Source: Flavipsychrobacter sp.
GTDB taxonomy: Bacteria > Bacteroidota > Bacteroidia > Chitinophagales > Chitinophagaceae
DNA length: 64,000 nucleotides
NCBI GenBank assembly: GCA_016786615.1
Contig: JAEUVX010000002.1
Location: 124,001 to 188,000, forward strand
Direction of reading: 5' to 3'
Positions within the stretch are counted from its first letter, which is position 1. The number at the start of each line of letters is the position of its first letter. The notes under the pieces were generated by a model. That model saw only the letters and a program-made list of their open reading frames with translations, ran no database searches and was not told where the DNA came from. Below are positions 41,065 to 53,996 of the stretch, piece by piece. The position numbers were made by a program, and so were the translations under genes.

Positions 41065-41153
41065 GGAGAGATGCTCGAGTGGTTTAAGAGGCACGCCTGG
41101 AAAGTGTGTGTACCTGTCAAAGGGTACCGAGGGTTCGAATCCCTCTTTCTCCG
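41065..41153 (+). tRNA. tRNA-Ser (anticodon GGA)
   Basis: 89 nt including the discriminator G, no encoded CCA. Acceptor stem GGAGAGA pairs with TTTCTCC, the D-arm has CTCGAGTGGTTTAAGAGGC, the anticodon loop reads CTGGAAA with GGA, a long variable arm (TACCTGTCAAAGGGTA) identifies serine, and the T-arm is GAGGGTTCGAATCCCTC. It has its own -7 box and terminator. Its 3' side borders the truncated integrase and the copper island, so it is the likely insertion site. Confidence 0.95.
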
Positions 41154-41176
41154 CATCTTGGTATTCAAAATTGTTT

Positions 41177-41210
41177 AAAAGCCTTCAAATGTACTGTTTG
41201 AAGGCTTTTT
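41177..41210 (+). terminator. Rho-independent terminator of tRNA-Ser
   Basis: Perfect 13-bp stem AAAAGCCTTCAAA / TTTGAAGGCTTTT with the loop TGTACTG, followed by T. Confidence 0.85.
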
Positions 41211-41254
41211 CATTTTTTAAAATGAGCCATTTTATTCATAAACACTCATATTCT

Positions 41255-41301
41255 CAGTGAGTTTTTAGTGAGTAAATGGTTTCCCTGAAATTTACTCACT
41301 G
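41255..41301. repeat. Inverted and direct repeats upstream of the integrase gene
   Basis: AGTGAGT occurs twice on the plus strand (41256-41262 and 41267-41273) and once inverted (41294-41300). AGTGAGTAAA (41267-41276) and TTTACTCACT (41291-41300) form a perfect 10-bp inverted repeat with a 14-bp loop. Such repeats beside an integrase gene may be arm-type recombinase binding sites or an autoregulatory operator; this is inference. Confidence 0.4.
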
Positions 41302-41403
41302 AACATACTGTAAAACACTCATTATCAACATGTTCGAATTTCGAACATCTTGTTTTGAAAGAACTGCATCAGGAACTTTGTTAACCTTTTAAATGCAGTA
41401 TTT

Positions 41404-42204
41404 ATGCTGAAATCAAATCTGAATGTTTTGTTCTACCTGAAAAAGCCAAAAGGCTACCGATCAGGTACTTTGCCTATCTATGTACTGATAGGTGTTGATA
41501 GCATATCCAAAGAAATCTCTACGAAATGGAATTGTGAACCTAAAAAATGGCATACACAATTTCAAAAAGCAATGGGCTCGTCCGAAGATGTTCGAACGTT
41601 AAATACTGATATTGCCAAACTGCTCAGTAAGATATACGCAGCCGAAGAAGCACTTCGAAAAAATGATGCTATCGTTACTGCGGATGCCATTAAGCAAATA
41701 ATCTCAGGAAAATCTCCTGCCAATCACTTGCTCTTGGGCATTTTCAAAAAGCATAATGAAAATATGTTTGCGCTAATCGGGAAAGACTACGCCAAAGGTA
41801 CGTTTGAACGCTATGAGACGTCACTGCAACACACCAGGGCTTTTATTAAATACAAATATGGTACTGACGATATTGATATCAAAAAACTCAATTTCGACTT
41901 TATCTCCGGTTACGAGTTCTGGTTAAAAACGGTAAGAAACTGCAATCACAATACTACCATGAAATATCTCGCCAATTTTCGGAAAATTATAAACAGTTGT
42001 ATCAGGCATGGATGGTTATCCAAAGACCCTTTTGTAGGTTTTAAGATGACTAAAAAAGAGGTGATAAAAGTCATTCTTACTGATGAAGAACTAAAAACAA
42101 TTCGGGGAAAATCTTTCTGCACACCAAGATTAAATCATGTGCGGGATATATTTATCTTCTGCTATATAAACCTGTTTGTTCTTCTTTCAAAACTCATCAC
42201 TTAA
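41404..42204 (+). pseudogene. Truncated tyrosine recombinase (Bacteroidota-type integrase), catalytic domain lost
   Basis: 266 aa. The N-terminal arm-binding region (LKKPKGYRSGTLPIYVLIGVD ... CEPKKWHTQFQKAMG) and the core-binding SAM-like domain (YAKGTFERYETSLQHTRAFIKYKYG ... NFRKIINSCIRHGWLSKDPFVGFK) are intact and typical of Bacteroidota transposon/phage integrases. The catalytic domain only begins (LTDEELKTIRGK ... RLNHVRDIFIFC) and then diverges into YINLFVLLSKLIT and a stop, just before the usual TGL(R/A) block. The Arg-His-Arg-Tyr catalytic residues are therefore absent and recombinase activity is lost. No continuation was recognised in the other frames downstream. Confidence 0.8.
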
Positions 42205-42967: not shown

Positions 42968-42998
42968 AGCAAATTCTTATATAGAATAATATTACACC
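42968..42998 (+). promoter_or_regulatory. Bipartite operator, site 1 (before HMA-AraC regulator 1)
   Basis: The right half ATAATATTACACC (42986-42998) matches 9 of 13 bases of site 2, and the 9-bp spacer TTATATAGA matches 7 of 9; the left half AGCAAATTC is weaker (5 of 9). It ends 18 bp before the -7 box at 43017, the same distance as in the other three sites, and so replaces the -33 element. Confidence 0.55.
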
Positions 42999-43016
42999 AC
43001 ACCGATTTACTTTGTA

Positions 43017-43024
43017 TATTTTTG
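43017..43024 (+). promoter_or_regulatory. -7 promoter box of HMA-AraC regulator 1
   Basis: TATTTTTG, matching TAnnTTTG, 46 bp before the ATG at 43071. The leader contains three tandem CCTAT units at 43036-43050. Confidence 0.55.
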
Positions 43025-43070
43025 CATCATACCATCCTATCCTATCCTATTTATACAAGAAATAGAAACT

Positions 43071-43640
43071 ATGGGTCAAAAAATCTTCATCAAAAATATG
43101 GTCTGCGATCGCTGCAAGCAGGCTGTGACGACACAGATCAGCAAATCGGGTATTAAAGTACTTGATGTGGATTTGGGCTATGCAGAAGTAGAGCCCGTTG
43201 AAATTGACCCGGTTGTCTTTGATGAAATTAGTGCCAATCTCAAATCAATTGGCTTTGAGCTGATAGACGATAAGAAACAAAAGACAGTAGAGCGGATTAA
43301 GAATGTAATCGTCGATATGGTCCATTATATGGATGAGCCGCTAGCAATCAAGCAAAGTGAGTACATTTCGTCAAAACTCAGTTATGACTATAACTACCTC
43401 AGTAAATTATTTTCTGAACTAGAAAATATTACAATCGAGCAATACATTATCAATCAAAAAATTGAGCGTGTTAAGGAGCTACTGACGTACGGCGAATTGA
43501 ATATAAATGAAATCGCCTTTAAACTAGGCTATAGTAGTGTGCAGCACCTATCTCAGCAATTCAAAAAAATCACAGGCTTGACACCTTCAGGTTATAAGCA
43601 GCAAAATGCTCATCCGAGAAAGCCTCTTGACCGCATCTGA
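43071..43640 (+). CDS. HMA-AraC fusion regulator 1 (putative copper-responsive activator)
   Basis: 189 aa, two domains. Residues 1-70 form a heavy-metal-associated (HMA) ferredoxin-like domain with the metal-binding Cys12-x-x-Cys15 in KNMVCDRCKQAV. Residues about 85-182 form a complete AraC-type DNA-binding domain with two helix-turn-helix units (SEYISSKLSYDYNYLSKLF and INEIAFKLGYSSVQHLSQQFKKITGLTPSGYK). This combination suggests direct sensing of Cu(I) or a similar soft metal and control of nearby genes. It has a paralogue 85 bp downstream, followed by the copper ATPase. Its own promoter carries the proposed operator, so autoregulation is likely. Metal identity and activator role are inferred. 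Confidence 0.8.
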   Translation: MGQKIFIKNMVCDRCKQAVTTQISKSGIKVLDVDLGYAEVEPVEIDPVVFDEISANLKSIGFELIDDKKQKTVERIKNVIVDMVHYMDEPLAIKQSEYISSKLSYDYNYLSKLFSELENITIEQYIINQKIERVKELLTYGELNINEIAFKLGYSSVQHLSQQFKKITGLTPSGYKQQNAHPRKPLDRI

Positions 43641-43647
43641 TATAATA

Positions 43648-43678
43648 ATATAAATCTTATTCAGAATAATGTAACAAG
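43648..43678 (+). promoter_or_regulatory. Bipartite operator, site 2 (before HMA-AraC regulator 2 and copA)
   Basis: ATATAAATC (43648-43656), 9-bp spacer, ATAATGTAACAAG (43666-43678). The -7 box GACATTTG (43697-43704) begins 18 bp later, the same distance as at the other sites. Confidence 0.65.
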
Positions 43679-43725
43679 CCTACATACTGTTTGTTGGACA
43701 TTTGCTCTTACAAAACAGTAAGTGT

Positions 43726-44283
43726 ATGGAGGTGACATATAACATAAAAGGGATGGTTTGTGACCGTTGTATCTCTGCCGTACAACAAGCACTCTTCGCC
43801 ATTGGTCATCAGGTAACCAGAATATACTTAGGAGAAGTTTCAATAAAAACCGAAGGAGTACAGCCTGATACTTCCACAATAGAGTCTGCGCTCAGCTCTT
43901 TGGGGCTAAGTATACTAGAAGATAAACAAGCCAAGATTATCAAACAGGTAAAAGACGTTGTTGCCAACGTTTATAGTGGAGATTTTGACTTTCCATACAC
44001 ATTCAGGCTATCTGCCTTATTGCAAGAACAATTGCGTAAAGATTACGATGCTATCAGTGCTATGTTCTCTGCTGCAGAAGGAATTACGTTGGAAAGCTAC
44101 GCTATCAACTATCGCATGAATAAGGTCAAAGAGTTTTTAGAACACACAGATAGTACACTCAGCGACATTGCTTTCAGACTAGGGTTTAATAGTGCTGCTC
44201 ATTTGTCGAAACAGTTTAAAGATATGACAGGCTTAACTACAGGTCACTATAAACTCATCAAACAAAAGAAGGTGTACGCTTAA
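43726..44283 (+). CDS. HMA-AraC fusion regulator 2 (putative copper-responsive activator)
   Basis: 185 aa from [15 protein letters not shown] (ATG at 43726; an in-frame TTG at 43702 lies at the -7 box and is excluded). Same architecture as regulator 1: an HMA domain with Cys12-x-x-Cys15, then an AraC-type double helix-turn-helix ([24 protein letters not shown] and [27 protein letters not shown]). The two proteins are clearly paralogous yet well diverged, consistent with an old duplication and possibly different metal thresholds. copA starts only 5 bp after the stop, so the two are co-transcribed from the promoter with operator site 2. Confidence 0.8.
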
Positions 44284-44288
44284 TAAAA

Positions 44289-46529
44289 ATGCCAAAAATA
44301 CCAGACATGAATAATGATAAAATAATTAAAGCGACATTCCCGGTGTTGGACATGACATGTGCAGCTTGTGCTGTAAGTGTAGAGTCAATGTTGACATCTC
44401 TGGATGGTGTAACAAAAGCTAGTGTGAATTTTGCCAATCAGGATGCTTTGGTTGAGTATGATACAACAAAAGTAACTCCTGAAGCACTGCGCAAAACCGT
44501 TCAGTCGATAGGCTACGATTTGATTATAGACATATCGAATCAGGACGTATTGAAAGAAGAGGCTTACAACAAACATTACAGTGCGCTAAAGCATCGCACC
44601 ATTTGGGCAACAATACTATCGTTTCCGATAGTTGTGATAGGCATGTTTTTTATGGATATGCCATATGCAAACTGGATAATGATGGTGTTGGCTACGCCGG
44701 TAATATTCTATTTTGGCAGGAGCTTTTTTATAAATGCAGTAAAACAGGCAAAAAACGGAAAGGCTAATATGGATACACTGGTGGCATTAAGCACAGGTAT
44801 TGCATATGTTTTTAGTTTATTCAACACATTGTTTCCTGAATTCTGGCATAGGCAAGGATTACATGCGCACGTTTATTTTGAAGCAGCCGCTGTAGTTATT
44901 GCTTTTATTTCTTTGGGAAAGCTGCTGGAAGAAAAGGCTAAATCCAATACATCATCTGCAATTAAGAAACTAATTGGACTGCAACCAAAAACAGTAAGGA
45001 TGCTGGTGAATAATGTTGAAGTAGAAAAGCCAATCTCTGATGTTGTTGTGGGAGATATTGTCATAGTAAGGCCTGGAGAAAAAATACCTGTTGACGGAAA
45101 GGTTATGAATGGCCACTCTTATGTAGATGAAAGCATGATAAGTGGAGAATCTATTCCTGTACAAAAGAAACAGGATGATAAGGTATATACAGGTACTATA
45201 AATCAAAAAGGTAGTTTTCAGTTTGTAGCAGAAAAAATAGGCTCGGATACATTATTGTCTCAGATCATTAAAATGGTGCAAGAGGCACAAGGCAGCAAAG
45301 CTCCTGTGCAAAAAGTTGTAGATAAAGTAGCTGGTATATTTGTCCCTGTTGTCATTGGCATATCTATCCTCACATTTATTGTATGGATGTTATTTGGTGG
45401 TGATGCAGCATTTACTCATGCACTGCTGACATCTGTTACTGTATTGGTAATAGCCTGTCCTTGTGCACTTGGTTTAGCCACTCCCACTGCAATAATGGTA
45501 GGCATTGGTAAGGGAGCCGAATTAGGAATACTGATTAAGGATGCAGAAAGTCTTGAGATAGGACATAAGGTAAATGCCATAGTACTTGATAAGACAGGCA
45601 CAATAACGGAAGGTCATCCTGAAGTAACAGACATTCTATGGGCAGCCCGTGCAGACGATGAACAACTAAAGCAAGTGTTGTATGCTATGGAGGCTAAGTC
45701 TGAGCACCCACTTGCAGACGCTGTAGTGCGTTACTTCCAGTTGCAGAATACCACTAAAGCAGACATAGATACATTTGAAAGCATAACCGGCATGGGGGTA
45801 GTAGCAACACAAAGTGAAATGCGGTATTATGCAGGTAGCAGTAAAATGATGAAAGATGGCATAAAATCAATAGATGCCAAATTGCAAACGCAGGCAACAC
45901 AGTGGCAAGAAGAGGCGAAAACTGTTATTTGGTTTTGGAATGATGATGGAGCCTTGGCGATTGTTGCAATTGCCGATAAGGTGAAAGCAACATCTGCAGC
46001 TGCAGTAAAAAAGCTGCATAATCTGGGCATTGAAGTTTATATGCTTACCGGAGATAATAGTCAGACAGCAAAAGTGATAGCAGAACAGGTTGGAATCAAT
46101 CATTATCATGCAGAAACTTTGCCATCCGATAAAGCTGTTTTCATAAAGGAATTACAATCTAAGGGGAAAATAGTAGCCATGGTAGGTGATGGAATTAATG
46201 ATAGCCATGCACTGGCACAAGCTGATATGAGCATAGCTATGGGTAAAGGATCTGACATTGCAATAGATGTTGCGAAGATGACATTAATACATTCTGATCT
46301 CAGTACAATACCCGCAGCACTAAATCTATCCAGAAAAACAGTAAATACCATAAGACAGAATTTGTTTTGGGCATTTATCTATAACCTGATTGGTATTCCT
46401 ATTGCTGCAGGCGTGCTGTATCCCATTAACGAATTTTTGCTAGACCCAATGATAGCGGGTGCTGCAATGGCGCTCAGTTCGGTCAGCGTAGTAAGTAATA
46501 GCCTGAGGCTAAAATTAGCCCGATTGTAG
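44289..46529 (+). CDS. copA: Copper-exporting P-type ATPase (P1B)
   Basis: 746 aa. One N-terminal HMA domain with Cys24-A-A-Cys27 ([13 protein letters not shown]), then eight membrane helices, the actuator loop with SGES (ISGESIPVQ), the ion-site Cys390-Pro-Cys392 in [14 protein letters not shown], the phosphorylation site DKTGT at Asp434, the SEHPLA nucleotide-binding histidine, and [23 protein letters not shown] plus HMA defines the Cu(I)-exporting P1B-1 type. The [14 protein letters not shown] form (S in place of the usual A/P) is a minor variant. It pumps Cu(I) from cytoplasm to periplasm, where the multicopper oxidase encoded downstream can oxidise it. Co-transcribed with HMA-AraC regulator 2. 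Confidence 0.93.
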
Positions 46530-46559
46530 AAAAATGCCTTACATATGTAAGGCATTTTT
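46530..46559 (+). terminator. Rho-independent terminator of the regulator 2-copA operon
   Basis: Perfect stem AAAAATGCCTTAC / GTAAGGCATTTTT with loop ATAT, beginning right at the copA stop codon. Confidence 0.9.
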
Positions 46560-46572
46560 GTTTGCCAACATT

Positions 46573-46603
46573 ATATAAATCACAGCCGCTATAATGTAAT
46601 AAG
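46573..46603 (+). promoter_or_regulatory. Bipartite operator, site 3 (before the MFS exporter)
   Basis: ATATAAATC (46573-46581), 9-bp spacer, ATAATGTAATAAG (46591-46603). The left half is identical to site 2 and the right half differs in one base. The -7 box begins 18 bp later. Confidence 0.7.
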
Positions 46604-46621
46604 AAGAGGTAACTGTGCAGA

Positions 46622-46629
46622 TACTTTTG
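46622..46629 (+). promoter_or_regulatory. -7 promoter box of the MFS exporter
   Basis: TACTTTTG, matching TAnnTTTG, 19 bp before the ATG at 46649; no -33 TTTG, its place is taken by operator site 3. Confidence 0.6.
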
Positions 46630-46648
46630 TGCCTATAAAAATAGTATT

Positions 46649-48067
46649 ATGCACTCAAACAATTTAACTAGCAACACAGCGTACCGAAACAGGTGGAAGG
46701 CATTACTGCTACTATGTACCGCACAATTTATGGTAATCATGGATACGTCAATTATTGGCGTAGCACTACCGGCAATCAAATCTGCGCTTGGTTACAGCCA
46801 AGCCGGCTTACAATGGATCTTTAATGCGTATGTAATATTCCTTGGTGGTTTATTGCTCTTAGGGGGTAAACTCTCCGATCTTTTCGGCCCCAGGAAGATT
46901 TTCATGACAGGTTTTATGCTGCTTACAGGCGCATCCCTACTTGCAGGCATGGCTTGGTCTGAAGGAGCGTTAAATACAGGTAGAGCATTGCAGGGAATGG
47001 GCTCTGCATTGATTGCACCTGCAGCCCTGACACTTGTAATGACGATGTTTACAGACCCTAAAGAGCTTGGAAAAGCTTTGGGTCTATGGGGCGCATCCGC
47101 TGCTGCAGGCGGTTCTGCCGGGGTGTTTCTTGGCGGCGTTATTACTGAATGGATGTCATGGAGATGGGTGTTTTTTATCAATATCCCTTTGGGCCTTGCA
47201 GTACTGATGTTTAGCAAAACCTATCTGTTGCAAGGAAGTACCAGAAAAGGTAAAGTCGATGTACTGGGCGCATTATTAATTACAGCTGCATTAGTACTGA
47301 TGGTATTTGCAATAGTAACTGCAGAAAACGGATTGCTAAATACTACAACAATTACTCAATTGGCTATTTCAGTAGGCTTGCTTGTTGCATTTTTGATAGT
47401 TCAAAAAAAACGAAATGAGCCACTGATCCCGTTGTCTGTATTTAAAGTGCCAAATCTATCGGCCGGCAATATTGTAATGGCCCTAATGGCAGCTGCATGG
47501 ATACCACTGTGGTTTTTCCTGAATCTCTACTTGCAACAGATTCTCCGGTTATCAGCATTTAAGAGCGGTCTTGCATTATTGCCAATGACAATTGTCATTA
47601 TGATACTTATGGTGGGCTTTACTGGTAAGCTGGTAGGCAAATTCGGATTTAAAAAGAATCTGATAACAGGTCTCACAGCTTTAGCTATATCCCTTTTTAT
47701 GTTTAGTCAGGCTCCGGTAAACGGTTCATTTACAGGCAATCTGTTGTTACCATCATTGTTGGCTGCTATTGGCATGTCACTGGCATATATTCCCGGCACT
47801 ATCGCTTCAATGTCTGGTGCAAAGCCAGAGGAAACAGGGCTCGCTTCAGGCTTAGTAAATACAAGTTATCAGATTGGTTCCGCATTGGGACTGGCCATCA
47901 TTGTAGCAGTATCTAGTGCAAAGACAAAACAGGCGATGCTGGACGGAGCACAAGAGATAGTTGCGCTAAACAATGGGTTTCAGTCTGCATTTGTAGCATC
48001 TACGTTTGTGGCTATACTTTCTGCTGTACTGGCTGCAATTTTCATAAAAACGCCTCAACAGCAATAA
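46649..48067 (+). CDS. MFS exporter, DHA2 (EmrB/QacA) family
   Basis: 472 aa with 14 hydrophobic helices. Helix 1 and the following loop read QFMVIMDTSIIGVALPAIKSALG and WIFNAYVIFLGGLLLLGGKLSDLFGPRKIF, the motif D1 and motif A of the 14-helix DHA2 drug:H+ antiporters; motif C-like GAAAGGSAGVFLGGVI follows in helix 5. Substrates of this family are mostly lipophilic cations or drugs. Its place between copA and other metal genes, and the shared operator, indicate that it is induced with the copper system. Whether it exports a metal chelate, a metallophore or something else is unknown. Confidence 0.88.
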   Translation: MHSNNLTSNTAYRNRWKALLLLCTAQFMVIMDTSIIGVALPAIKSALGYSQAGLQWIFNAYVIFLGGLLLLGGKLSDLFGPRKIFMTGFMLLTGASLLAGMAWSEGALNTGRALQGMGSALIAPAALTLVMTMFTDPKELGKALGLWGASAAAGGSAGVFLGGVITEWMSWRWVFFINIPLGLAVLMFSKTYLLQGSTRKGKVDVLGALLITAALVLMVFAIVTAENGLLNTTTITQLAISVGLLVAFLIVQKKRNEPLIPLSVFKVPNLSAGNIVMALMAAAWIPLWFFLNLYLQQILRLSAFKSGLALLPMTIVIMILMVGFTGKLVGKFGFKKNLITGLTALAISLFMFSQAPVNGSFTGNLLLPSLLAAIGMSLAYIPGTIASMSGAKPEETGLASGLVNTSYQIGSALGLAIIVAVSSAKTKQAMLDGAQEIVALNNGFQSAFVASTFVAILSAVLAAIFIKTPQQQ

Positions 48068-48125
48068 TCCCCTGTTATTAGTGTGCAAGCGCCTTATTGT
48101 ATGCAGATTACGATAACGCAAAATA

Positions 48126-48156
48126 ATATAAATCAAAGTCCGCATTATATAACAAT
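48126..48156 (+). promoter_or_regulatory. Bipartite operator, site 4 (before the double-HMA protein)
   Basis: ATATAAATC (48126-48134), 9-bp spacer, ATTATATAACAAT (48144-48156). The left half is identical to sites 2 and 3. The -7 box begins 18 bp later. Confidence 0.65.
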
Positions 48157-48174
48157 ACACATGTGGGTAGCTTG

Positions 48175-48182
48175 TAGTTTTG
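48175..48182 (+). promoter_or_regulatory. -7 promoter box of the double-HMA gene
   Basis: TAGTTTTG, matching TAnnTTTG, 22 bp before the ATG at 48205. Confidence 0.6.
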
Positions 48183-48204: not shown

Positions 48205-48657
48205 ATGAGTCTGGTTGTATTGCATATCCCCAAGTTGAAATCGGGCAATTGTGTATCTGTTATTGCAAATAGTATTAGCAATATAAAAGGCATCAGTTTG
48301 ATATCTATTATACCAATGCTCGTAGTTGTTAAAGAACCGGCAATGCCTGAAGGATTAGAAAAGTTGCGATACACAATAGAACGCTTGGGTTACAGCATTC
48401 TGAAAATTGAAAAAGTAAACAGTTTAATAAATATTATAAACAAAATGGAAAAGGTAAAATTTAAAACGAACATTAAGTGCATTGGATGTGTTGCGCAGGT
48501 AAGCGCTAATATGAACGAATTATTAGGCGAAAATAATTGGGAAGTCGATGTTGCCAGCGCAGAAAAGACGCTGACTGTCATACAGCAAGATGGCATAACA
48601 AATGAAGATGTTGTCTCAGCTGTAGTTGCTGCAGGGTTTAAAGCAGAGAAAGTGTAA
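48205..48657 (+). CDS. Small protein with two HMA-like domains (putative copper chaperone)
   Basis: 150 aa. The C-terminal 70 residues, from MEKVKFKTNIKCIGCVAQVS, form an HMA domain with an intact C-x-x-C, like CopZ-type metallochaperones; an internal start at 48445 would yield this domain alone. The first 80 residues also have HMA spacing but keep only one cysteine (LKSGNCVSVIANSI) and end with ERLGYSILKIEKVNSLINIINK, closely resembling the HMA-to-HTH linker of the regulators ([19 protein letters not shown]). The protein thus looks like a regulator sensor domain whose DNA-binding part has been replaced by a second HMA domain. Predicted cytoplasmic. Its promoter carries operator site 4. Confidence 0.7.
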   Translation: MSLVVLHIPKLKSGNCVSVIANSISNIKGISLISIIPMLVVVKEPAMPEGLEKLRYTIERLGYSILKIEKVNSLINIINKMEKVKFKTNIKCIGCVAQVSANMNELLGENNWEVDVASAEKTLTVIQQDGITNEDVVSAVVAAGFKAEKV

Positions 48658-48784: not shown

Positions 48785-49231
48785 ATGAAAAAGATATTCT
48801 TACTGGCATTTTCTGCATTGATAGGTTTTCAAGCGAATGCCCAAACAAAAGAAGAGCTTACATCTTCTTTGCACAAGTATTATAGCATAAAGGATGCTTT
48901 GATTAGCGATAATGCGAAAGAAGCATCTAAACAAGCCGAAATATTCAGTACGTATCTACGTAGCAATCCGTATACGGGTAGCGCAGACCTGCTTACACAG
49001 GTGCAAAAAATTGGTTCAGCTAAAGACATTGCCAAACAAAGGGAGTTTTTCGCACTGTTATCTGCACAAATGATAGCATTGCTTGACAAACAGACTATTG
49101 GTGAGCTTGGTTATATTCAGTTTTGCCCAATGAAAAAGGCAGAATGGATTAGCAACGACAAGAATATTAAAAACCCATACTATGGAAAAAGTATGCTAAC
49201 ATGTGGTAAGACAACCGACAGCCTGAAGTAA
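48785..49231 (+). CDS. Periplasmic DUF3347 protein (copper-handling)
   Basis: 148 aa with signal peptide ending GFQANAQ. The helical body (LHKYYSIKDALISDNAKEASKQAEIF) and the C-terminal YIQFCPMKKAEWISNDKNIKNPYYGKSMLTCG are the DUF3347 hallmark, the same block found at the C-terminus of CusB-like adaptors, with Cys and Met residues fit for Cu(I). It probably binds periplasmic copper. It lies 18 bp upstream of the multicopper oxidase gene and is surely co-transcribed with it. Confidence 0.85.
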   Translation: MKKIFLLAFSALIGFQANAQTKEELTSSLHKYYSIKDALISDNAKEASKQAEIFSTYLRSNPYTGSADLLTQVQKIGSAKDIAKQREFFALLSAQMIALLDKQTIGELGYIQFCPMKKAEWISNDKNIKNPYYGKSMLTCGKTTDSLK

Positions 49232-49249: not shown

Positions 49250-51418
49250 ATGAAGAAGCACACTGCAGTATTCTTGATGTTAATTACCTTCTTTACGAGC
49301 TCTTTGTTTGCTCAAGAAGAGCCACGTGGCCAATTGGTTACAATAGGAACCAAAATAGTTTACCATCTGTATGTAAAAGATACAACTGTCAACTTTGGTA
49401 GTAAAAGATCTGATGCGATATCAATAAATGGAACTATACCTGCGCCCACGTTATACTTCACAATAGGAGATACTGCTGAAATACATGTTCACAACATGAT
49501 GCACATGGAGACATCTATCCACTGGCATGGATTGATACTACCTAATGAACAAGATGGTGTGCCTTATCTTACAACAGCGCCTATTAAAGGGCATACAACA
49601 CATGTATATAAGTTCCCTATAGTACAAACCGGTACATACTGGTACCATTCTCATACAATGCTACAGGAGCAAAGCGGTATGTACGGTGCTATCGTGATAA
49701 AAAAACGACTACCCGCTACGATGCAAGAACACGTTGTACTTCTCAGCGACTGGACTAATGAATCACCTGCACAAGTAGAGCGATCTTTACACTATGCCAC
49801 AGATTGGTATGCGATTAAGAAAGGCGCTACACAAGATTATTGGCAATCTGTCAGAGAAGGCAAACTTGGCACAAAGCTATTGAACGAGTGGAAACGAATG
49901 ACGGCTATGGATGTTAGCGATGTTTTCTATGACAACATGCTGATTAATGGCAAGTTAAAAGATAGTATCAATAACCTTCAAGCAGGAGACAGTATTAGGC
50001 TAAGGGTAATAAACGGAAGTTCTTCTACCTATTTCTGGCTGCAATATTCGGGAGGTAAAATAATAGTTGTTGCATCCGATGGCGCAGAGGTGCAGCCTGT
50101 TGAGGTAGATAGACTCATTGTTGGAGTATCAGAAACATACGATGTCATTATTGTCAGGCCAGACACGGGTAGCTACACATTCCTGGCAACAGCAGAAGAC
50201 AGAACTAAACATACATCTTTAGTGATAAGTAGTCATCAAAATAGTTCAGTGCAGCTAATGCCAAGACTCAAATACTTTGAAGGGATGAAAATGATGAATG
50301 GTATGATGCGCATGAACGGCTCGATGAATGATATGGGGATGGGCATGAGCCTTCAGCAGATGGACATGAATACAGTAATGTATCCGGAAGTAACAGATAG
50401 CAACAAAGCAATTACCACCCTGAACTATGCAATGCTGAGAGCCCGGAGTCCAACTACTTTACCAGATGGTATGTATCGAACTTTAAGGTTTGAATTGACA
50501 GGTAACATGAATCGCTATGTATGGACAATAGACAATAAAACAATATCGGAGTCAGATAAAATACTGATTAAAAAAGGTGAAAATATTCGTATCATATTAT
50601 ATAACAACTCTATGATGCGTCACCCGATGCATTTACATGGTCATTTTTTCAGAGTATTGAATGGGAGTGGAGACTATTCCCCATTGAAAACTGTCTTAGA
50701 CATAATGCCTATGGAAACTGATACTATAGAGTTTCATGCGTCTGAGGAATATGGAGACTGGTATTTCCATTGCCATATATTATATCATATGATGTCTGGC
50801 ATGGGTAGGATATTCAGGTATGAAAACACTCCTCCAAATCCACAACTGCCTGATGAAAGAAAGGCACAAAGGAAAGTATATCACGATGATCGACGCTTTT
50901 ATCTTGGGGCTCAGATTGGCATTGAAAGTAATGGTAGTGATGGAGAAGCTATGTTGTCGAACACAAGATGGCAGTTACAAACTGAATGGAGAATAGGATT
51001 GAACAATACAAAGGGATACGAGAGCGAGACTCATATTGGTAGGTTTATAGGTAGAAATCAACAGCTATACCCATACGTAGGTTTTGATTGGAGGTATAGA
51101 AAACAGTCTGTATCAGAAACAAACCTGTTTAATCAGATAAACTCAAAGGATGAGCGTGTTGTGACATGTTTTGGTATTCAGTATACCCTGCCAATGTTGT
51201 TGAAAGCCGATGTGAGGATTGATATGACAGGCAATCTGAGGGTGCAATTATTCAGAGAAGATATTCCACTTGCTAAAAGGTTGCGATTGAATCTGATGGC
51301 TAACTCTGATAAGGAATATATGTTAGGTCTTCGATACATCGCCACAAAGTACTTTTCTATTTCTACACACTATGATAGTGATATGGGGTATGGAGCCGGC
51401 ATTACTATTACCTATTAA
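49250..51418 (+). CDS. Multicopper oxidase (CopA/CueO-type) fused to a CopB-like outer-membrane domain
   Basis: 722 aa with signal peptide (FFTSSLFAQEE). Three cupredoxin domains occupy residues about 30-530. All copper ligands are visible: His91-W-His93-G, YWYHSH, His458-PM-His461-L-His463-G-His465 and His507-Cys508-His509 with His513 and axial Met518, i.e. type 1, 2 and 3 sites complete. A Met-rich segment at about 345-375 (MKMMNGMMRMNG and following) resembles the Met-rich region of CueO/PcoA that binds Cu(I). Residues about 550-722 are a beta-strand-rich tail (TEWRIGLNNTKGYESETHIGRFIGRNQQLYPYVGFDWRY) like the CopB/PcoB barrel. It should oxidise Cu(I) in the envelope. Confidence 0.9.
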   Translation: MKKHTAVFLMLITFFTSSLFAQEEPRGQLVTIGTKIVYHLYVKDTTVNFGSKRSDAISINGTIPAPTLYFTIGDTAEIHVHNMMHMETSIHWHGLILPNEQDGVPYLTTAPIKGHTTHVYKFPIVQTGTYWYHSHTMLQEQSGMYGAIVIKKRLPATMQEHVVLLSDWTNESPAQVERSLHYATDWYAIKKGATQDYWQSVREGKLGTKLLNEWKRMTAMDVSDVFYDNMLINGKLKDSINNLQAGDSIRLRVINGSSSTYFWLQYSGGKIIVVASDGAEVQPVEVDRLIVGVSETYDVIIVRPDTGSYTFLATAEDRTKHTSLVISSHQNSSVQLMPRLKYFEGMKMMNGMMRMNGSMNDMGMGMSLQQMDMNTVMYPEVTDSNKAITTLNYAMLRARSPTTLPDGMYRTLRFELTGNMNRYVWTIDNKTISESDKILIKKGENIRIILYNNSMMRHPMHLHGHFFRVLNGSGDYSPLKTVLDIMPMETDTIEFHASEEYGDWYFHCHILYHMMSGMGRIFRYENTPPNPQLPDERKAQRKVYHDDRRFYLGAQIGIESNGSDGEAMLSNTRWQLQTEWRIGLNNTKGYESETHIGRFIGRNQQLYPYVGFDWRYRKQSVSETNLFNQINSKDERVVTCFGIQYTLPMLLKADVRIDMTGNLRVQLFREDIPLAKRLRLNLMANSDKEYMLGLRYIATKYFSISTHYDSDMGYGAGITITY

Positions 51419-53606: not shown

Positions 53607-53996
53607 TCAAATAAGGAAGACCTCATTCAGGATATAAAGAGGTGGGAGGCAAATATCTGGTGGAGAGTTGTTATGAATAGACTTTTCTACCTCTTGATTA
53701 ACTGCGGAAGAAAAATGAGGCGAATCACAGTAAGTTGGTAAATCTGCCAGTAGAATTGTTTGAAAATTCAGTTTGGGTCCCTTACCTATAAAATCACATC
53801 CATTCTTTTTAAACTTGATTTTATTTTCTTTGCAACACCCTGGAGGCATTACTTTTTTCTTACAACATTTTTTTTTGTGATTATCCTTAAATGTAATGTA
53901 CTTAAGATGTCCTCCACAGTGATGAAAGTTCATACTAATGCCAAACGCACAAAGCGTATAACTAACTAAAAGTAGTATGACTAAAAATCTCTTCAT
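53607..53996 (-). CDS. HYC_CC_PP family protein, copy 1
   Basis: 129 aa with a signal-anchor (MKRFLVILLLVSYTLCAFG). The family marks are present in order: FHHCGGHLKYI (the HYC-type motif), a Cys-pair region KKKCCKKKVMPPGCCKENK, and the late PPDICLPPLYIL. The Cys-rich, Lys-rich middle could bind copper or other soft metals. These proteins are Bacteroidota-specific and of unknown function, often beside copper or mercury genes. A second, diverged copy lies at 55078 on the opposite strand. Confidence 0.7.
   Translation of the reverse strand: MKRFLVILLLVSYTLCAFGISMNFHHCGGHLKYITFKDNHKKKCCKKKVMPPGCCKENKIKFKKNGCDFIGKGPKLNFQTILLADLPTYCDSPHFSSAVNQEVEKSIHNNSPPDICLPPLYILNEVFLI

Follow-up and report, generated by a model that had tools for sequence, protein, structure and literature searches.

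How is the expression of copper defence genes switched on in a bacterium whose copper cluster encodes two AraC-type proteins carrying a domain of the HMA copper-binding type? The window analysed here, a stretch of 64,000 nucleotides from a Flavipsychrobacter sp. of the family Chitinophagaceae (assembly GCA_016786615.1, contig JAEUVX010000002.1, positions 124,001 to 188,000 of the forward strand), contains such a cluster, and its initial annotation proposed that four promoters share a bipartite operator at a fixed distance of 18 bp from the -7 box and form a copper regulon of the two HMA-AraC proteins. The full operator is present at three of these promoters. It accompanies genes for HMA-AraC proteins and for copper handling, both within the family and outside it, contains a direct repeat resembling the target of an AraC dimer, and lies at a fixed, class II-like distance from the -7 box; on these sequence comparisons, an HMA-AraC copper regulon at this cluster is well supported. 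We assign a probability of about 0.82 to the reading in which sites 2, 3 and 4 are operators of an HMA-AraC one-component copper regulator that would activate the R2-copA, MFS and HMA promoters via Cu(I). The features concerned are as follows, in window coordinates.

42986..43024, + strand: site 1 (predicted), before R1; right half ATAATATTACACC, 18 bp and -7 box TATTTTTG, without a left half
43071..43640, + strand: R1, HMA-AraC regulator 1, 189 amino acids (aa), with an MVCDRC metal motif and an AraC double helix-turn-helix (HTH) domain (Pfam HTH_18/HTH_AraC)
43645..43704, + strand: site 2 (predicted), before R2-copA; direct repeat ATAATATAA / ATAATGTAA in 21-bp phase, right half, 18 bp and GACATTTG
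43726..44283, + strand: R2, HMA-AraC regulator 2, 185 aa, MVCDRC, identified with Pfam; in a clade of its own
44289..46529, + strand: copA, PIB-1-type Cu-exporting ATPase with an N-terminal HMA domain (TIGR01511, 607 bits against a cut-off of 397; Pfam HMA)
46570..46629, + strand: site 3 (predicted), before the MFS gene; repeat ATTATATAA / ATAATGTAA in 21-bp phase, then TACTTTTG
46649..48067, + strand: MFS exporter, DHA2-like (TIGR00711, 228 bits, slightly below the cut-off of 230.2)
48123..48182, + strand: site 4 (predicted), before the double-HMA gene; repeat ATAATATAA / ATTATATAA in 21-bp phase, then TAGTTTTG
48205..48657, + strand: double-HMA protein, 150 aa, probably a copper chaperone (PF00403, 26.9 bits against a cut-off of 24.8; the second half weakly matches CopZ)

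The motif letters and coordinates given by the initial annotation were found to be correct on re-reading of the sequence, and the gap between the end of the 13-bp right half and the -7 box is exactly 18 bp in all four promoters (TATTTTTG at 43017, GACATTTG at 43697, TACTTTTG at 46622 and TAGTTTTG at 48175). The bipartite operator itself is complete at 43648, 46573 and 48126 (sites 2, 3 and 4); the position at 42968 (site 1) retains the right half only. The exact pattern has three matches in the 2.96-Mb genome and none for the reversed control. With up to three mismatches, five further genome matches were obtained against six in the control, all five lacking a -7 box at the 18-bp distance; when the T's of the -7 box were added to the pattern, sites 2-4 and a single three-mismatch match remained in the whole genome (control, one). 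Within its own genome, the full operator appears to be confined to the copper cluster. A weight matrix trained without the window and the sister genome gives sites 2, 3 and 4 scores of 39.7, 41.6 and 45.7, the three highest in the window, against -2.6 for site 1 and -5.5 for the next best position. The spacers and flanks differ among sites 2-4. The argument that the common geometry of the sites speaks against chance stands for sites 2-4 (three matches against zero in the control) and falls for site 1, which is at background level. The scan of this and related genomes that had been suggested as a check finds the motif above controls in its own genome, in the family and beyond.

In sites 2-4, the element ATWATRTAA occurs twice as a direct repeat in 21-bp phase, followed by 18 bp to the -7 box; the initial annotation did not mention this repeat, which was hidden by its division into halves. 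The consensus, derived from 48 sites whose -7 box stands at 18 bp (31 belong to loci fetched for carrying the motif), is AAATTATATAAATC-N9-ATTGTATAACANN-N18-TAnnTTTG, and the self-similarity of these sites is highest at a shift of 21 bp (0.63, against 0.21-0.46 for the other shifts of 8-33 bp). Direct-repeat half-sites in 21-bp phase are also the geometry of araI1-I2. The arrangement typical of AraC/XylS targets, with same-orientation half-sites about 21 bp apart, is seen at the sequence level in sites 2-4 and in their relatives, and by this analogy two such half-sites separated by two helical turns would fit a dimer of an AraC-family protein.

The spacing to the promoter was determined for 75 distinct sites from the fetched loci and the window, picked with up to two mismatches regardless of the -7 box (reversed pattern, three). 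TAnnTTTG is found at 18 bp in 29 of these sites, at 17 bp in four, and at no other distance between 0 and 59 bp; with a looser definition of the box, the counts are 46 at 18 bp, five at 17 bp and two elsewhere. Where the box is present, the predicted sites of this set cover the -33/-35 element and keep a constant phase to the -7/-10 box, as is characteristic of class II activation. No TTTG was found 17-21 bp upstream of the -7 box in any of 48 related sites, and the statement that none of the promoters has a -33 TTTG is upheld for sites 2-4, which are included in this count. According to the available part of a study of Flavobacterium johnsoniae, the -33 element was not identifiable there either (PMC7366714). 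The missing TTTG is weakened as evidence of activation, because the -33 box may be dispensable in the phylum, as far as the available part of that source goes (PMC7366714).

Site 1 was rejected as a full operator: its left half is missing both in the window, where 4 of 9 positions are mismatched, and in the sister genome G007, and its half-site geometry is at the genome background. The right half (one mismatch) and the -7 box of site 1 are good, and a 17-bp block, TATAGAATAATATTACA, is conserved in G007. Nevertheless, the combination of right half and -7 box has 13 matches in the whole genome, sites 1-4 counted in, versus 10 in the control, and in the window a right half with at most one mismatch stands at the exact distance from 3 of the 64 TAnnTTTG boxes, site 1 among them. 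Site 1 may be a weak or one-sided site, or merely the core promoter of regulator 1.

R1 and R2 are two-domain proteins. The AraC/XylS double HTH is recognized in both by Pfam (HTH_18, 66.3 and 54.3 bits against a cut-off of 33.6), and DNA-binding domains of the MerR, CsoR, CopY or CusR types were found in neither by Pfam, which reports AraC families only. A profile of 62 sequences matched single-domain CopZ proteins with residues 2-67 (E 1.1e-4 to 2e-4) and multi-HMA copper ATPases with E 1.8e-7, summed over their repeats; the remainder of the profile matched AraC domains (E 7e-13), with the structures 3lsg, 6swi and AraC 2k9s. In the structural model of R1 (predicted local distance difference test, pLDDT, 89.7; predicted template modelling score, pTM, 0.73), an HMA-type fold connected by a linker helix to an AraC domain is predicted, and the modelled elements E3-8, H13-24, E29-34, E37-41, H47-58 and E63-65 would follow the beta-alpha-beta-beta-alpha-beta order of HMA domains. 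Foldseek searches with this model retrieved AraC domains at E 4e-5; the hits to HMA proteins were weak (E 0.15-0.25). The CxxC motif of the first loop is present as MVCDRC in both R1 and R2; among 128 aligned sequences, Cys15 is found in all and Cys12 in 88%. MVCxRC is kept in 111 of 126 relatives, and in the other 15 the first Cys is replaced by Ser or Thr. Several further HMA-AraC-like regulators (L261, L264, L265, L269 and L272) lack MVxxRC, having, for example, MACESC or no CxxC at this place; judging from these variant sequences, the sensor part of the regulators has diversified further.

The pattern with the T's of the -7 box (up to two mismatches) has 292 matches in 168 of 394 genomes of the family, versus 22 for the reversed pattern, and was found in 63 of the 101 genera of this sample. 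HMA-AraC genes were detected in 289 of the 394 genomes (E up to 1e-25); the detection scored eight candidates per genome, and the 105 absences, 23 of which were rechecked, are soft. The motif is present in 145 of the 289 genomes with HMA-AraC (266 matches; control, 18) and in 23 of the 105 genomes without a detected gene (26 matches; control, 4 across all 105), which corresponds to a Fisher p of 3e-7. For the distance test, 150 of the 292 match places were used: 90 are in genomes whose HMA-AraC gene has a known position, none of them in the window's own or sister genome, and the other 60 lie in genomes without a regulator position on the gene list. Among the matches listed, 55 of the 90 are within 12 kb of an HMA-AraC gene (1.05 expected for a 5-Mb genome) and 34 are within 500 bp (0.07 expected). 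With a shorter pattern, 21 of 54 places are within 12 kb of such a gene, seven of these in the own and sister genomes. Conversely, a matrix site scoring above 10 is present in 93 of 117 HMA-AraC loci, 12 of which (L189-L200) had been fetched for carrying the pattern, versus 0 of 117 reversed sequences; among loci outside the training set, the fraction is 70 of 94.

The proteins encoded downstream were compared for 50 genes that follow sites having a box at 17-18 bp: 21 match HMA, 11 E1-E2 ATPase (partly with HMA too), four HlyD_D23 (an RND-adaptor family), four HTH_18 (AraC-type HTH), four MauE and three MFS, along with single matches to other families. The promoters of sites 2 and 3 are kept in the sister genome G007 (L039, L201), in which the promoter after copA is followed by the gene of a predicted RND-type adaptor in place of the MFS gene, and the MFS and HMA genes each have a site of their own. 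MFS exporter homologues with their own site are found in G007 (90%) and in G198 (66%), and the order regulator 1, site, regulator 2 is repeated in G337 (L189) and G101 (L191). As a separate observation, the counterpart of the window's double-HMA open reading frame (ORF; 48205-48657, 150 aa) in the sister genome is a separate HMA ORF of 69 aa that follows a longer leader (L201, 8751-8960), a difference that may lie in the start or in a fusion.

Beyond the family, 84,980 species were scanned, and the best 80 of 148 encoded relatives were taken, giving 79 tested loci with the sister locus L109 omitted. The operator with its spacing occurs 37 times in the 79 loci (up to three mismatches), compared with 0 for the reversed pattern and 0.8 on average for 40 permuted patterns, single ones of which reached at most nine matches at three mismatches in the second group; these loci include more Chitinophagaceae, one Chlorobiota contig, near copies and three loci overlapping with L040, L041 and L044, and the counts are not independent. 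The operator recurs in Bacteroidales and Flavobacteriaceae. In the latter it mostly lies 55-85 bp before a copA relative, and Bizionia echini (L183) has an HMA-AraC gene and the operator about 80 bp before a copA-type gene. In Draconibacterium (L118, L121), in Marinilabiliaceae N1Y90 (L124) and in L129, all contigs of Bacteroidales type, the gene that follows the operator is not copA but encodes about 420 aa and looks like a permease. Among the 50 downstream proteins, one has an ArsP_1 match, probably that of L129. Outside Bacteroidota, an HMA-AraC gene with 47% identity was observed on a contig assigned to Chlorobiota (L177).

Taken at its word, the copper-activation reading describes the following switch. 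Cu(I) would be bound by the cytosolic HMA domain through MVCxRC, and a dimer of R1, R2 or both would then bind the same-orientation ATWATRTAA half-sites in their 21-bp phase of two helical turns. The proximal half would occupy about -43 to -32, the place of a -33 element, and the fixed 18 bp to TAnnTTTG would allow contact between the regulator and RNA polymerase and hence transcription start. The targets would be R2-copA, the MFS exporter and the HMA gene, and possibly the DUF3347 and multicopper oxidase genes behind the latter. The sequence analysis shows the operator with its repeat and spacing, the company it keeps with HMA-AraC and copper genes, and the two-domain architecture of the regulators; binding of the regulators to DNA, copper as the signal and activation as the outcome are the parts of this scheme that we infer.

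Several observations weigh against this reading. The 21-bp self-similarity is partly built into the search pattern, its independent part being the left flank AAAT, which resembles the right half. More than half of the spacing set (45 of 75) was taken from loci that had been fetched for the motif, and the Flavobacteriaceae loci include many near copies, making the counts not independent; moreover, 24 of the 75 have no -7 box at 17-18 bp, some in loci without any sought copper gene (L209-L212, L214-L218), others with a sequence close to the box at 18 bp, for example TTACTTTG (L118, L121, L124). At E 1e-3, neither R1 nor R2 is recognized by Pfam HMA (PF00403), which is why both are called HMA-like by fold and profile. 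At the stringency used, 144 of the 289 HMA-AraC genomes show no motif match, and 26 matches lie in the 23 genomes without a detected HMA-AraC gene: when these 23 were rechecked with a profile, 3 yielded the regulator or fragments of its HMA part, 16 only AraC-domain matches and 4 nothing. Finally, similar sites precede non-copper genes (class-I aldolase, rubrerythrin, SHOCT proteins) in genomes with Ser-type paralogues.

The last two groups of observations bear on whether some other copper-linked factor, such as a CusR-type response regulator, binds the motif with the HMA-AraC gene as a mere neighbour. The 20 motif-bearing genomes in which the profile search still found no regulator speak for such a factor. 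Against it stand the 34 of 90 sites, among the matches listed, that lie within 500 bp of an HMA-AraC gene, the 54 of 105 Cys-type regulator genes with a site up to 300 bp downstream, the fit of the direct repeat to an AraC dimer, and the similar sites that also accompany Ser-type paralogues without copA nearby; we consider this explanation improbable. Only slightly less improbable is a variant that keeps the same regulators and operator and reverses the sign, with HMA-AraC repressing without copper and copper relieving the repression. Several metal sensors do act by derepression, which lends this variant its precedent. The position of the sites argues for activation instead: sites that have a -7 box stand upstream of it in a fixed phase (18 bp in 46 cases, 17 bp in five, elsewhere in two), as for activators that contact the polymerase, and TTTG at -33 is absent from all 48 related sites, though the -33 box may be dispensable in the phylum.

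That the repeated sequences arose by chance or by recent duplication in AT-rich DNA has hardly any credibility left. The geometry of site 1, taken alone, is at chance level and would agree with such an origin; for sites 2-4 it was ruled out by the genome counts (three against zero in the control), the recurrence in 63 of 101 genera of the family and the recurrence in other orders, to which the divergent spacers and flanks can be added.

The copper-activation reading had been taken to include activation by both regulators of their own promoters. In a tree of 128 regulators, R2 falls into one clade of seven rows (support 100/100), and 14 of the Ser-type rows group together (98/86), values that carry a long-branch warning and an unsettled bootstrap. 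A site upstream of the regulator's own gene was found for 5 of 6 members of the R2 clade, a fraction biased upward by rows mostly from loci fetched for the motif, and for 1 of 105 Cys-type, 1 of 14 Ser-type and 0 of 1 Thr-type genes. A site up to 300 bp downstream is present for 54 of 105 Cys-type genes, 2 of 6 of the R2 clade, 4 of 14 Ser-type and 0 of 1 Thr-type; the commonest layout is regulator, operator, target. Self-control is retained for R2, which has site 2 upstream and is probably under positive feedback from it, and dropped for R1: general auto-activation of regulator 1 was rejected on the 1 of 105 Cys-type genes with an upstream site, and R1 is probably without positive feedback.

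The classes also differ in their surroundings. Loci with a Cys-type regulator contain a copA relative in 46 of 104 cases and any sought copper gene in 67 of 104; for loci with only a Ser-type regulator, the numbers are 0 of 13 and 1 of 13. In genus g70 and others (L195, L200, L221-L247, L249-L265), Ser-type HMA-AraC genes (MVSxRC) occur together with many sites flanked by (T/G)GAAT(T), often with a CACCTTTR -7 box. G413 has six matches, and the Ser-type gene is the only HMA-AraC detected in it at E 1e-25 (genome 88% complete). In G318, G346, G123 and G371, the Ser-type gene stands alongside other HMA-AraC variants, some without MVxxRC, and the assignment of sites to regulators is ambiguous; in L195, the site of a 2-hydroxyacid dehydrogenase gene is 5.8 kb from the Ser-type gene and its -7 box is poor. 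From these gene contexts, the paralogues of the Cys-to-Ser clade seem to serve genes unrelated to copper through the same operator.

With regard to known systems, R1 and R2 resemble the AraC/XylS class II activators (AraC at araBAD, MarA, SoxS, Rob) in the C-terminal double HTH, as judged by Pfam, the Protein Data Bank (PDB) profile and Foldseek, and in the operator, where a direct repeat in the 21-bp phase of araI1-I2 places its proximal half-site at the upstream promoter element. They differ in the sensor, which has an HMA copper-binding-type fold, not a sugar cupin or none, and in the promoter, which is of the Bacteroidota -7 type. With CopZ/Atx1 metallochaperones and the HMA domains of copper ATPases, they share the beta-alpha-beta-beta-alpha-beta fold and CxxC in the first loop; unlike these, their HMA domain is fused to a DNA-binding domain, lies below Pfam HMA detection and carries MVCxRC, not the MTCxxC that is the motif of CopZ/Atx1-type HMA domains. 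The known copper regulators CueR (of the MerR family), CsoR, CopY and CusRS, which control copA, chaperone, efflux and multicopper oxidase genes, have other DNA-binding folds than R1 and R2, for which only AraC families are reported by Pfam. The combination proposed here couples an HMA sensor to control of the AraC type and has a promoter grammar that is conserved.

Among the open-licence papers that literature searches for such a regulator brought up, none names an HMA-AraC copper regulator in its title or in the opening of its abstract. A 2024 study of Bizionia argentinensis describes, in its available part, homologues of MerR and CopY that lack copper sites, and for the cytosolic regulators it could offer only proteins of the ArsR type as a suggestion (PMC11213822); its main text, to the extent available, names no AraC-type regulator (PMC11213822), and AraC is not mentioned in the accessible portion of PMC6316836. 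Cytosolic copper sensing in Bacteroidota seems unsettled, and the shared operator hints at how copper defence may be switched on. The odds appear even to us for a broader proposition: that HMA-AraC proteins are unrecognised main copper sensors of Bacteroidota, with one grammar (21-bp repeat, 18 bp, TAnnTTTG) from Chitinophagales to Bacteroidales and Flavobacteriales, and that the MVSxRC clade put it to use at genes unrelated to copper, class-I aldolase and rubrerythrin among them (G413), in many cases with GAATT as the flank and CACCTTTR as the -7 box. If this were true, the MVSxRC clade, having lost the first Cys, would have turned a metal sensor into a sensor of something else. The high information, near-exact spacing and hundreds of instances of the operator allow direct tests of the regulator, of the signal it responds to and of the way it contacts the unusual promoter of Bacteroidota, and the operator could serve as a signature for calling copper regulons across Bacteroidota.

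Two further genes follow the double-HMA gene of the window.

48785..49231, + strand: DUF3347 protein (Pfam)
49250..51418, + strand: multicopper oxidase, related to the copper-resistance proteins CopA/PcoA (TIGR01480, 369 bits, below the cut-off of 479)

The DUF3347 gene possibly belongs to the operon of site 4, and it adjoins a multicopper oxidase gene in some relatives; the multicopper oxidase gene is possibly in the same operon. Upstream of the cluster, at 41065-42204, a tRNA-Ser(gga) is followed by an ORF with tyrosine-recombinase arm-binding and SAM-like domains and no match to a catalytic domain; the copper genes may form a genomic island next to this tRNA. At 53607-53996, the window contains a small His/Cys-rich ORF without a Pfam match, which looks secreted and by eye resembles proteins behind operator-like sites in L226 and L232.

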